From assembly GCA_025055755.1 (NCBI GenBank), contig JANWWF010000016.1, positions 1 through 34,549 of the forward strand: 34,549 bases of DNA. The letters run 5' to 3'. A program made the translations under genes and the position numbers. The stretch's first letter is position 1. Each line of letters starts with the position of its first letter. Of this stretch, positions 3,008-10,144 are shown piece by piece. A model generated the notes under the pieces. The model was not told the origin of the DNA. It saw only the letters and a list, made by a program, of their open reading frames with translations, and did no database searches. This stretch comes from Candidatus Kapaibacterium sp. Its GTDB lineage: Bacteria > Bacteroidota > Ignavibacteria > Kapaibacteriales > NICIL-2.

Positions 3008-4864
3008 GTGACGCACTCTCGTCCACCTTTGTCCGAACGACTTACTCAGCGAACCCTACCGCTGATTGCAATTGGCTCGATTGACTATGAGCTTCAAGAG
3101 CACGGCATCGAGCGGACAGAGCTTGCGCCACTGCAATCTCCCCTTCTGGTCGAAGAAACTCTTGCGGCGTTTGTTGAAGCAGGAGCAGAACTCCTTTTTA
3201 CTCCCACTGAGCGTGCGAGCCGTCTTTGGCTTCACGCCCTCGACCGTGCAGAAAAGGTCTATGAACTCAATCGCAAAGCAGTATGGATTGCTCGCAAAGC
3301 CGCAGCAAAACGGGCATACGTAGCCGGCGTTATTGCTCCGCCGCCGGTGATGCTGCAGCCTGTTGGGAGCTTGACCAAAGAGATGCTCCGCCGTAGCGTT
3401 GCTGAACAGGCTATTGCCCTGCTTGATGGAGGATGCGACGCGGTGGTGCTCAAATCTTTCCTGGACCTTGAGGAGCTCGTCCTTGCCATCGAAACCGTTG
3501 CTCCCCTTGCCAATGGCATCCCCATTATCGCGCTGAAGGCATTCCCCGAGGATGGCGCAGTGTTGGCTACGTCATTCGCTGCAGATGTAGCCCGCCTCCT
3601 CACAGGGCTTGGTGTAGCGGCAATTGGTGCCAGCGGTACCGTTGGTCCCCAACGCATGCAAACGATTATCACGCGCCTGCGGCAGGGAACAACTGTGCCA
3701 ATTGTTGCTCTCCCCGACAGTAGCATCCCAAGCATGGTAAGCGGTCGCGCAGTATATCGCGCAGAAACCGACTACCTTGCGCAGTCAGCTATTCGTCTCT
3801 TCCACGCAGGGGCAACAGTGGTGGGAATAGACCGTGGTGCTCTCCGCATGCACATTCAGGCGGTTGCGACGGCACTCCGGAATGTTAGCCCGCCAGCCGA
3901 GCAGCCCCGCATAAGTGTGCGCGATACCCATCTTGCGCCATCACCCCCTATTCCTGCGCCCTCTGCCTTTGCTCAAGCAGTACGGACACGGTTTGTGACG
4001 ACCGTAGAACTTGACATCCCCCGTGGCTTGCACATGGAGAGCGTGTTCGAGGGAGCTCGCTACCTCCGGCAGCACGGCATTGATGCAGTCAACATCAGCG
4101 ATGGCGCTCGTGCTCGCCTCCGCATCAACTCGATCATGCTCAGTGCAGCAGTACAGCAACAAACGGGGATGGAGTGCATCGCTCATCTTGCCTGTCGCGA
4201 TCGAAATATGGTCGCTTTGCAAAGCGACCTCCACGGCGCAGCCTTGTTGGGGGTGCAGAACATTCTTGCTGTCAGCGGCGACCCCTCGCACATTGGCGAT
4301 TTTCCTCGCGCCGCAAGTGTCGGCGATCTCGATTCCATCGGTCTTATCCGCGCTGCGCGCATGATGAACAGCGGACGCGATTTGGCAGGCAATCCGCTGG
4401 GAAGCGCAACAAACTTCTGCATCGCATGTGCATGCAATCCATGCGCCGACGACCTTGAACGCGAACTTGATCGCCTTGCCCACAAGGTTGCCGAAGGAGC
4501 AGAGGTAGTTTTCACACAGCCGTTATTTGACGTTGAACAGTGGTTCAACTTTATCGAGCGTGTGCGGAACTTGCCAGCGCGGTTTATCGTTGGCGTCCTG
4601 CCGCTGCGAAGCTTGCGGCATGCAGAGTTTCTGCACTATGAAGTGCCAGGAATGGTTGTACCGAAGTGGGCACGCGAGCGACTGCGCACAGCCCCGACCC
4701 CTGCATATGCAGCGGAGGAAGGCATAACGATAGCTGCAGAATTCCTCGCTGCTGTTCACTCCTATGCCGATGGAGTGTACCTAATGCCACCATTCAAGCG
4801 CTATGACGTGGCTGTTGAAGTACTCCGTCGTGCAGGAATACGCACACCGGTCCAACAATCGTAA
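3008..4864 (+). CDS. Homocysteine S-methyltransferase-like / methylenetetrahydrofolate reductase fusion, zinc site lost
   Basis: The 618-residue protein has the architecture of YitJ-type bifunctional enzymes (about 610 residues). Residues about 15-300 align with the homocysteine methyltransferase barrel: LIAIGSIDYELQEHG stands where the family has DGAMGT-LQ-RG. Residues about 322-612 form a methylenetetrahydrofolate reductase domain, with the catalytic glutamate E334 in TTVELDIPRG, AVSGDPSH, and FTQPLFD. The three zinc cysteines of the methyltransferase are absent: the GxNCxxGP motif reads GASGTVGP (Cys to Gly210), and the GGCCG motif reads GIDRG (Cys-Cys to Asp275-Arg276). Zinc-dependent methyl transfer to homocysteine is therefore unlikely. 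The reductase domain carries an extra cysteine cluster, C471-C474-C476-C479. The start is GTG at 3008 with a weak ribosome binding site. It is monocistronic and divergent from the acyl-CoA dehydrogenase. Confidence 0.88.
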   Translation: MTHSRPPLSERLTQRTLPLIAIGSIDYELQEHGIERTELAPLQSPLLVEETLAAFVEAGAELLFTPTERASRLWLHALDRAEKVYELNRKAVWIARKAAAKRAYVAGVIAPPPVMLQPVGSLTKEMLRRSVAEQAIALLDGGCDAVVLKSFLDLEELVLAIETVAPLANGIPIIALKAFPEDGAVLATSFAADVARLLTGLGVAAIGASGTVGPQRMQTIITRLRQGTTVPIVALPDSSIPSMVSGRAVYRAETDYLAQSAIRLFHAGATVVGIDRGALRMHIQAVATALRNVSPPAEQPRISVRDTHLAPSPPIPAPSAFAQAVRTRFVTTVELDIPRGLHMESVFEGARYLRQHGIDAVNISDGARARLRINSIMLSAAVQQQTGMECIAHLACRDRNMVALQSDLHGAALLGVQNILAVSGDPSHIGDFPRAASVGDLDSIGLIRAARMMNSGRDLAGNPLGSATNFCIACACNPCADDLERELDRLAHKVAEGAEVVFTQPLFDVEQWFNFIERVRNLPARFIVGVLPLRSLRHAEFLHYEVPGMVVPKWARERLRTAPTPAYAAEEGITIAAEFLAAVHSYADGVYLMPPFKRYDVAVEVLRRAGIRTPVQQS

Positions 4865-4925: not shown

Positions 4926-5567
4926 ATGGCAACAGAGTACATGGTTCAGGTCCCCCTTTCGGAACTGCGGATTGGATTTGGCCGCCGCTTTGCAGCTACA
5001 CTTCTCGATGGTATCATTGTTGCTGTTGTTTCTCTCCTGCTCAACGGAATGATTAGCTCGGAATTGGAGCCTCTCCTTAACGAGAAAATTGAGCAGCAAA
5101 CGGCACAGCAAAGTGCTACCCTTGATGAACTCGATGAAGATAGCGCCGACGCAATGATGACAATGGTGCGATTTTTCACTGTGTGGACTGTCGTGGTGCT
5201 CATTACAGGGCTTCTTTACTACGGCTTGACGGAAATCTTCCTTGCTGCATCTCCAGGAAAGATGATGCTGGGCATCAAGATTGCAAGCCAAGATGGCACT
5301 CCTGCATCTACACAAGCGTTGGCAACTCGGTGGTTTATCAAGTCCGGACTGAGCAGCCTTCTTGGTGTGGTAGCCACCCTCAGTGATTCGATCGTGCTTA
5401 GCGTTTTATATCCGCTTGTCTCGTTTATCGTGTTTATTGGCTACTTTTTTGTGTTCGGTGAAAAACGCCAGGCACTCCACGATCTTATCGCAAAAACTGC
5501 AGTCTATCGCCGCGAGCACATCCAGCACCAATCGGTAGAAGATGGAACAAACCCGCCTGTACTATAG
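4926..5567 (+). CDS. RDD family integral membrane protein
   Basis: A 213-residue membrane protein with the RDD hallmarks: FGRRFAATLLDGIIV starts the first membrane segment (about residues 18-43) with the Arg and Asp that name the family. A second hydrophobic segment spans about 82-105 and a long hydrophobic stretch about 135-175 could make two more. SPGKMMLGIKI and the terminal QALHDLIAKTAVY are the other conserved blocks. A glutamine- and acid-rich loop (about 52-75) separates the first two segments. RDD proteins are poorly understood; some act as ion or metabolite transporters. A GGGAG ribosome binding site stands 6 bases before the ATG. The last 26 bases overlap tryptophan 2,3-dioxygenase, so the two are surely co-transcribed. 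Confidence 0.85.
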   Translation: MATEYMVQVPLSELRIGFGRRFAATLLDGIIVAVVSLLLNGMISSELEPLLNEKIEQQTAQQSATLDELDEDSADAMMTMVRFFTVWTVVVLITGLLYYGLTEIFLAASPGKMMLGIKIASQDGTPASTQALATRWFIKSGLSSLLGVVATLSDSIVLSVLYPLVSFIVFIGYFFVFGEKRQALHDLIAKTAVYRREHIQHQSVEDGTNPPVL

Positions 5568-6630
5568 CGACTATTTACAGCTCAACAAGATTCTCTCCGC
5601 TCAACAGCTGCGCAGCAGCGCTGCGGGCACGCCTGCACACGAGGAAATGCTTTTCATCATCGTCCACCAAGCATTTGAGCTGTGGTTCAAGCAACTGCTC
5701 TGGGAACTGCGCGACGTAATTACGCGGATTGGGCAGGATTATGTTCCTGAATCCGACGTCGGCATTGCTCTCGACCGCGTGCGGCGAATGCTGGTTATCA
5801 TGGATTTACTCGAGCGGCAATTCGATGTGCTCGAAACAATGACTCCCTCCCAGTTCATGGAATTTCGAGATCAGCTCTATCCTGCCAGCGGGTTTGAGTC
5901 CGTGCAATTTCGCATGGTAGAGGTTGCGCTCGGAGTTGATGAACGCACACGTGTCCAGATTGACGCTGCAGGTTACCGTGCGCGACTGCGCCAGGAGGAT
6001 CGAGCTGCGCTGGAGGATGTCGCTCGGCAGCCTTCCCTCTTTACCGCAATTGAACGCTGGCTGGAGAAGATGCCCTTTATGGAATCAGGCGGCTACCGCT
6101 TCCTTGATGCTTACCGTCAGGCAGTGGAGCGCATTTTTGCCCATGACCGCGAAGAACTGGCAAAGGTCACAACGCTAAGTCCAGACGAGCGTATTCGGCA
6201 GCAGGAGCAAATTGCCCGCCTGGAAGCGCACTTTGCCGCCCTCTTCGATGAGCAAGCCTATCGGACACTTCAGGAGCGAGGGGAAAAGCGCTTGTCGCAA
6301 CGAGCAACATTAGCAGCATTGTTCATCACAGTTTACGCCAATTACCCGTTGCTGCAACAGCCCTACCGTTTGCTCGATGCTGTGCTCGAATTGGATAAGC
6401 GGGTGAGCATGTTCCGTTTCCGCCATGCAATGATGGTTAGCCGCATGATTGGGCAGCGCACCGGTACAGGCGGCTCCAGCGGTTTCGACTACCTAATGGC
6501 AACGGTTCTCCGTCATCGCGTTTTTGCTGATTTAGCTGCCCTATCGAGCTACATCCTGCCTTCGTCGCACGTGCCGCCCTTGCCCGACGACATTGCGCAC
6601 AAACTCCACTTTGTCGCGGAAATCAGCTAA
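5542..6630 (+). CDS. kynA: Tryptophan 2,3-dioxygenase
   Basis: This heme enzyme opens the indole ring of L-tryptophan with O2 to give N-formylkynurenine, the first step of the kynurenine pathway. Key residues known from the Xanthomonas enzyme are all present. The distal histidine is H42 in FIIVHQAFELWFK, the carboxylate-binding arginine is R109 in MEFRDQL, the axial heme histidine is H295 in FRFRHAMM, and the tryptophan-binding loop RTGTGGSSGFDYL follows. At 362 residues it is longer than the roughly 300-residue Xanthomonas enzyme, with the extra length between the conserved blocks. ATG at 5542 lies inside the RDD gene. The next kynurenine enzymes (formamidase, kynureninase) are not in this window. 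Confidence 0.93.
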   Translation: MEQTRLYYSDYLQLNKILSAQQLRSSAAGTPAHEEMLFIIVHQAFELWFKQLLWELRDVITRIGQDYVPESDVGIALDRVRRMLVIMDLLERQFDVLETMTPSQFMEFRDQLYPASGFESVQFRMVEVALGVDERTRVQIDAAGYRARLRQEDRAALEDVARQPSLFTAIERWLEKMPFMESGGYRFLDAYRQAVERIFAHDREELAKVTTLSPDERIRQQEQIARLEAHFAALFDEQAYRTLQERGEKRLSQRATLAALFITVYANYPLLQQPYRLLDAVLELDKRVSMFRFRHAMMVSRMIGQRTGTGGSSGFDYLMATVLRHRVFADLAALSSYILPSSHVPPLPDDIAHKLHFVAEIS

Positions 6631-8739: not shown

Positions 8740-10026
8740 TTAGCCCTCGCCTTCGAGCTCGGCTTTGATTTCTTCGTAGGGGCGCTCGACAATGCGGACG
8801 CGCGCAAAGAGGAAATCAAACAGCGCATCGGTGAGTAAACGATTGCGTAGCGACGGTTTCTGCTCGAGTACCATTTTGAGTTGTACGGTATCAACGCCAT
8901 ATCGCTCTGCCAGCGCTGCAAGTCGCTCCTCAGTCAGGCGAATATCTTCCTGACGAAGAATTGTATCGGCAATCAATTGCCAGCGAACTGCGCTTTCTGC
9001 TTGAGGAAGGAAGTACTCGACAAGCTGCTGGCGAGGGATCTGCTGAAGGCGTTTATCTTCTTTGTTTCGCTCGAGGGTATCCGTTGCAAATTCTTCCGCC
9101 ATTGTACGGATCAGACTTTCGGGCACATCGAACTCATGAAGCTCCACCATCGTATCCACAAGACGCTCGCGCAGGTAGGAGTTGACCTGTTTCTCCCATT
9201 CTTGCTCTAACACACGCCGTAGCTCGCTGCGCAACTGCTCTTCTGTAGAAAGCCTACCGTTTGTCAAGGATGCAATGAATTCTTCCGTAAGCTCAGGAAG
9301 GACAACACGCTGTACGTCCACAACAGTGACGTGATAGATGTGTTCGTGAGCATGTGTTCTGTGCTCATCGCTGGTATGCCGAGTACGATACACAAATGTA
9401 TCCCCTTTGCGAAGGTTGAGAAGCTCTTCCCGCAACTGAGGATCCATGTGGTCATCGTCGAGGAAGAAATCTTGCTCTTTCCCGCCCACCAGCGGTGCAT
9501 TTGTCTCCGGGTCAACCGGAGCAAACTTGAGCTTGACAACGTACATCAAGTCCGTGATTTGCTCAGCGGGCACAAGCTCTGCGTTCCGCAGGCGAATATT
9601 TTCCAGCTCCTCGTCAATATCGGCTTCAGTGATAGAGCGAATTGGCTTGACAAGCTCGATCTGCTCGTAGGGCACAAGTGTTATATCCGGCATAATGTCG
9701 CACTCGACAACGACGCGTGCCCCACGGTCGGCAGTGCGTTCCAGCTCTACCAAGACAGGAGTTCCCACTACATCGAGTGCATGCTCTTGAGCAGCAGTAC
9801 GAAATGCTTCACTGGCAATATCGCCGAGTGCTTCTTGCTCAATGTGTGCACCGTACCGTGCTTTGATGATCTCGATCGGCACTTTGCCTTTGCGGAAACC
9901 TTCCAGTTGAAGATCCTTTTGCACTTCAGCATACGCACGCTCAAAGTATGGGGCAAGCTCGCTATAGCTCAACACGATTTCAACCGCACGCCGCAGTCCC
10001 CCGCGATCATGAATGGTTGTTTGCAC
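8740..10026 (-). CDS. tig: Trigger factor
   Basis: Trigger factor is the ribosome-bound chaperone that meets nascent chains at the exit tunnel. The ribosome-docking signature GFRKGKVP is at residues 43-50. A diverged FKBP-like domain occupies about 150-245, and the helical C-terminal chaperone domain fills the rest of the 428 residues. I chose GTG at 10026 because it is preceded by GAGGTG with a 5-base gap, and [10 protein letters not shown] begins the family fold. A longer frame reaching 10089 reads into the tRNA-Leu gene and is an artefact. The PPIase-like region contains a histidine-rich stretch ([13 protein letters not shown]), so peptidyl-prolyl isomerase activity is doubtful. The gene follows the tRNA by 36 bases and leads into clpP and clpX. 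Confidence 0.94.
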
Positions 10027-10062
10027 GAAAGCACCTCGAAAATTGTGAAAGGAGTAAATAGG

Positions 10063-10144
10063 TGCGGACGGAGAGACTCGAACTCTCACGGGTTGCCCCG
10101 CCAGATCCTAAGTCTGGTGCGTCTGCCAATTCCGCCACGTCCGC
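10063..10144 (-). tRNA. tRNA-Leu (anticodon UAG)
   Basis: The minus strand folds into a full cloverleaf of 82 bases. The acceptor stem is GCGGACG with CGTCCGC, and the discriminator base is A. The anticodon stem is CCAGA/TCTGG with loop CTTAGGA, giving anticodon TAG (reads CUN leucine codons). A class II long variable arm (GCGGGGCAACCCGT) and a GAGAG-TTCGAGT-CTCTC T-arm complete it. Only CC of the CCA end is encoded (the next base is T), so CCA must be completed by the nucleotidyltransferase. It lies 36 bases upstream of tig on the same strand and may share its transcript. Confidence 0.96.

Follow-up and report, generated by a model that had tools for sequence, protein, structure and literature searches.

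What becomes of a homocysteine methyltransferase barrel that has lost its zinc ligands and is yet kept at full length beside an MTHFR domain? We address this question for a locus in a 34,549-nucleotide stretch of DNA from Candidatus Kapaibacterium sp. (contig JANWWF010000016.1; the whole stretch is referred to here as the window), in which an open reading frame on the plus strand (positions 3008-4864) starts at GTG and runs through 618 codons without interruption. Its product is a 618-residue YitJ/PRK08645-type fusion, the NCBIfam model PRK08645 (NF006396) being matched over residues 10-609 at 528 bits against a cut-off of 453, which places it by homology among the YitJ fusions. The two-domain YitJ layout proposed in a first-pass annotation of this DNA is borne out by this match and by those to PF02574 (residues 27-289, E 7e-28) and PF02219 (residues 327-584, E 5e-30). 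In an AlphaFold2 model of the fusion (mean pLDDT 89.5) both barrels are confident. The N-terminal barrel (about residues 19-295; positions 3062-3892, plus strand) is predicted to have the S-methyl_trans fold without a zinc site, and in structure comparison it matches the MetH homocysteine domain (Z 35.6, rmsd 2.6, 291 aa) and BHMT (Z 34.7), that is, the TIM-barrel fold of the family; the model of the C-terminal MTHFR barrel (residues 327-584; positions 3986-4759, plus strand) matches the MTHFR of T. thermophilus (Z 30.6, rmsd 2.1).

Pocket residues were mapped through a phmmer alignment to MetH of T. maritima (1q7m), which is ungapped across the zinc-site region. All three zinc cysteines are replaced, Cys207 by Gly210 (codon at positions 3635-3637) and Cys272-Cys273 by Asp275-Arg276 (3830-3835), exactly where the first-pass annotation had placed the losses, and the fusion thus lacks the three-cysteine site of a functional bifunctional YitJ protein. 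The metal-adjacent Asn234, which we take to be the zinc-side asparagine (fourth ligand) of substrate-free MetH, has become Asp237 (3716-3718), and Glu146, which holds the amino group of homocysteine, has become Lys149 (3452-3454; all codons on the plus strand). A conserved carboxylate binds this amino group in both MetH and MetE (PMC539065), and at Lys149 the fusion has none. No other cysteine aligns at the zinc positions; Cys143 is the sole cysteine of the barrel, so a three-cysteine site cannot be rebuilt from others, and alternative cysteines are ruled out. The earlier reading that DGAMGT has changed to IGSIDY is correct for the window's copy but specific to its genus, most zinc-less relatives having DGS(M/I/V).

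The window's genus has the most altered pocket of all the zinc-less fusions (IGSIDY, PTERASR), as might be expected of a sequencing or assembly error or of a gene decaying in one genome. Such an origin is nevertheless vanishingly improbable, as the same state is found in dozens of independent assemblies that form one clade with 100% support, in an open frame with pN/pS well below 1. The relatives of the source organism are Kapabacteria/Ignavibacteria assemblies, and 60 of 61 close genomes yield a match of some kind to the query, in most cases the same fusion. Among 114 proteins of the class that were read, 56 are full-length zinc-less fusions, the window's copy included, from ten families (f1, f2, f4, f5, f6, f7, f9 and f10 of the same order; f13 and f19 of the same class). 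Cysteine is absent at positions 210 and 276 in every one of them, and a lone middle cysteine at 275 is kept in two fusions of f19, a family in which this position is variable (C, F, S, Y). One-off decay, with a single degenerate copy beside intact homologues, is ruled out by these clade-wide relatives. Of the replacement residues that the first-pass annotation had singled out, Gly210 and Asp/Glu275 are conserved (nearly) throughout the clade, but Arg276 is confined to the window's genus, with glycine elsewhere. Position 149 is lysine (or arginine or serine) in the zinc-less clade and glutamate in all zinc-bearing fusions. We saw no zinc-less fusion outside the class; in the one further fusion found, which belongs to another class of the phylum, the cysteines are intact.

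The zinc-less fusions form one clade (SH-aLRT 100) in a tree built from the MTHFR columns only, and a single loss therefore explains all of them; the substitutions go beyond chance because they are common to the whole clade. The fusion has thus lost its zinc site by one event and throughout a large clade of uncultured bacteria (Kapabacteria and relatives). A sister fusion subfamily (f12, f14, f16, f17, f23, f25, f29 and part of f21) has intact GxNCTVGPQRM and G(A/G/S)CCG motifs, and the zinc site is likewise retained in a more distant subfamily (f3, f11, f20, f21 and others). The sister fusions (L128, L130, L131, L147, L158, L160 and others) have PAAG in place of PNAG, and with it no metal-side asparagine, while all three cysteines are intact. 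This PAAG-bearing subfamily is an apparent intermediate, its alanine at the metal-side position suggesting a stepwise path in which asparagine first gave way to alanine and the cysteines were then lost along with the changes from glutamate to lysine and from alanine to aspartate. A partial loss is seen in genera g17 and g28 of family f3 (L090, L092, L185, L186), where the first cysteine is serine, the third leucine or valine and the metal-side asparagine serine (SCL/SCV with PSAG), with the glutamate and the middle cysteine retained. This loss of two of the three cysteines, in the other fusion subfamily, is independent of that in the zinc-less clade.

Throughout the zinc-less set E334, H393, D425 and Q504 of the MTHFR half are invariant. 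E334, D425 and Q504 are the equivalents of the catalytic Glu28, Asp120 and Gln183 of E. coli MTHFR; the MTHFR site is therefore intact, and with the PF02219 match these residues give this half the sequence characters of a MetF. Each zinc-less genome of the class sample contains exactly one PF02219 match, which is the fusion. The first-pass annotation had supposed that methionine might be made by another route, and this is supported in the window's genome by a MetE of 772 aa (G000:C52, L126:2651-4966) with its zinc ligands (HMC, E, C) in place; neither a Met_synt_B12 domain, nor another PF02574 protein, nor MetH was found in that genome. Among the six genomes of the window's genus MetE without MetH occurs only here, the congeners having the MetH B12-activation domain and four better assemblies also a split MetH with intact cysteines. 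Elsewhere in the order sample MetE is limited to genus g7 (f5), where it is 51-52% identical to that of the window's genome. MetH has been exchanged for MetE in the window's genome, perhaps by transfer. We considered whether a correlation between zinc loss and another methionine synthase would prove redundancy and dropped the argument, as 223 of the 245 genomes sampled from the class have MetH regardless of the zinc state of the fusion. MetH or MetE, found in every zinc-less genome read but also in almost all zinc-bearing ones, makes the loss permissible without establishing its cause. In family f3 two zinc-bearing fusions (L089, G059:C20; L093, G018:C52) lie near a full-length metH on the same strand.

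These genomes also bear on whether the barrel might itself still methylate homocysteine, either without metal or at a non-cysteine metal site composed of Asp237, Asp/Glu275 and His282. Aspartate and histidine are able to bind zinc and H282 is present in 43 of the 56 zinc-less fusions, yet it is replaced in the other 13, D275 is lost in f19, lysine stands in place of the glutamate that salt-bridges the homocysteine amino group, and a separate MetE or MetH is found in every zinc-less genome read, which together make persisting methylation very improbable.

Genomic context was surveyed within the window, where the fusion's neighbours are truA and genes for an acyl-CoA dehydrogenase, an RDD membrane protein and a tryptophan 2,3-dioxygenase, together with clpX and tig; no methionine gene is among them. 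At gathering thresholds no riboswitch was detected near the fusion or near the metE of this genome. The dioxygenase (positions 5542-6630) is divergent, scoring 293 bits with Pfam and 176 bits with TIGR03036 against a cut-off of 391. A tRNA gene on the minus strand (positions 10063-10144), just upstream of tig, overlaps the start of the longest tig frame (8740-10089), so the true tig start is probably further in.

Near-invariant residues new to the zinc-less set are S24 (.98), F55 (1.0), R89 (1.0), W93 (1.0), K149 (.90) and D237 (.98), and at each of these positions both zinc-bearing groups have something else. At the pocket mouth K149, K177, E181, D182, R216 and D237 are charged or polar and near-invariant, and mouth side chains are more conserved than the remaining barrel (mean.76 vs.56, MWU p 1e-4), as is likewise the case in the zinc-bearing groups. 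Across five species of the window's genus, identity at the mouth is.73-.86 against.57-.69 elsewhere in the barrel. In the same genus pN/pS is 0.23-0.36 (about 0.3) for the barrel and 0.14-0.23 (about 0.19) for the MTHFR half, values that serve as a rough guide with pS near saturation. Judged from these patterns, the zinc-less barrel is under purifying selection, its pocket rewritten and held; the earlier claim that this is not decay agrees with the open frame, the low pN/pS and the clade-wide shared state.

The barrel could also be a relic needed only for the folding, solubility or oligomerisation of MTHFR, its pocket being without a ligand. The barrel is less conserved than the MTHFR half, both across the zinc-less fusions (54% identity against 63%) and within the window's genus (67% vs 80%), and its faster evolution in that genus fits a passive scaffold under relaxed constraint equally well. 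A single helix (81-99) carries both of the newly fixed residues R89 and W93; in the model it is away from the pocket loops and could form a domain or oligomer interface. In some relatives that lost the fusion (f8, G032), MetF occurs as a stand-alone protein. However, near-invariant charged and polar residues at the mouth are unexpected from a bare folding need, and we regard such a passive role as rather unlikely.

Those same residues could instead serve a new, zinc-independent reaction on another substrate, with Lys149, Asp237, Asp/Glu275, Lys177 and Arg216 as the rewritten pocket. Consistent with this are the acidic and basic residues that became fixed in concert where the active site had been, and an additional set of fixed changes in the window's genus (N66P, N71S, G113P, G276R/H). 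On the other hand, K149 is serine in two sequences and arginine in three, and in f19 the place of D275 is taken by S, Y, F or C, which leaves no strict clade-wide catalytic constellation beyond D237/K177/E181/D182/R216; no gene neighbour in the window points to a reaction. New catalysis is thus considerably less probable than a passive scaffold.

We infer that the fusion acts as an MTHFR and that its barrel either is a scaffold or binds an effector or substrate. The explanation that we prefer, and consider reasonably probable, is that a working MTHFR is joined to a pseudo-methyltransferase barrel, which now has a structural role and, by binding an effector or part of the folate or substrate in its pocket, tunes or docks the MTHFR. 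One ancestor of Kapabacteria and the neighbouring families lost the zinc cysteines from a zinc-bearing YitJ-type fusion, and on the same branch the glutamate for the homocysteine amine would have become lysine and the metal-side asparagine or alanine aspartate. The barrel would then have stopped making methionine, because zinc-thiolate activation of homocysteine had become impossible, and a separate MetH or MetE would have supplied it. Being a component of the sole MTHFR in the cell, it would have been retained, with the pocket mouth rewritten and held, and the pocket would now bind an effector or part of the folate or substrate. A bolder proposal, that the dead methyltransferase barrel is a ligand-sensing (allosteric) or newly catalytic MTHFR domain across an entire bacterial clade, is possible, if somewhat doubtful; were it true, the barrel would be a bacterial counterpart of the eukaryotic MTHFR regulatory domain, derived from a methionine-synthase barrel by zinc loss and a swap of pocket charge. 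The strong part of the finding is the clade-wide, single-origin and coordinated rewriting of the pocket on the only MTHFR, and the proposed ligand or role is the weak part.

These results have implications for annotation as well as for enzyme evolution. Automatic annotation names the protein a bifunctional methionine synthase, a label that is wrong for half of it across the clade, and models of methionine and folate metabolism in Kapabacteria built on that annotation will consequently err. Furthermore, fusions with zinc and asparagine, with zinc and alanine, and with no zinc, together with those of another family that lost part of the site independently, provide a natural series for studying how an enzyme domain becomes a non-catalytic partner. 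Among open papers we found no zinc-less YitJ fusion, and if the pocket does bind an effector, it would represent an MTHFR regulatory domain undescribed in the literature searched.

Compared with known systems, the window's fusion shares domain order and length with the YitJ/PRK08645 fusions, including the sister sequences in which GxNCTVGP and G(A/G/S)CCG are preserved, but lacks their zinc ligands, homocysteine-amine glutamate and metal-side asparagine. To judge from these residues, it cannot be bifunctional as the PRK08645 name implies, being of YitJ type by homology with a methyltransferase half that falls short functionally. In fold, a distorted TIM barrel, the zinc thiol methyltransferases (the homocysteine domain of MetH, BHMT and MmuM) agree with the window's fusion (Z 31-36, rmsd 2.3-2.6), whereas the barrel of the fusion has neither zinc cysteines nor a cobalamin or betaine partner domain. 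Eukaryotic MTHFR carries a C-terminal SAM-binding regulatory domain that is not a methyltransferase barrel. The eukaryotic enzymes (PDB 8qa6 and 8uy2 in the structure comparison) resemble the fusion, by analogy only, in pairing a catalytic MTHFR barrel with a non-catalytic domain, although in the fusion the additional barrel is N-terminal and of methyltransferase type. A known precedent for a dead zinc/homocysteine barrel beside an active one is the N-terminal barrel of MetE, a duplicated barrel that has lost zinc and homocysteine binding and partners the active barrel (PMC539065); in MetE, however, that partner is an active homocysteine barrel engaged in methionine synthesis, whereas the barrel described here is joined to MTHFR.
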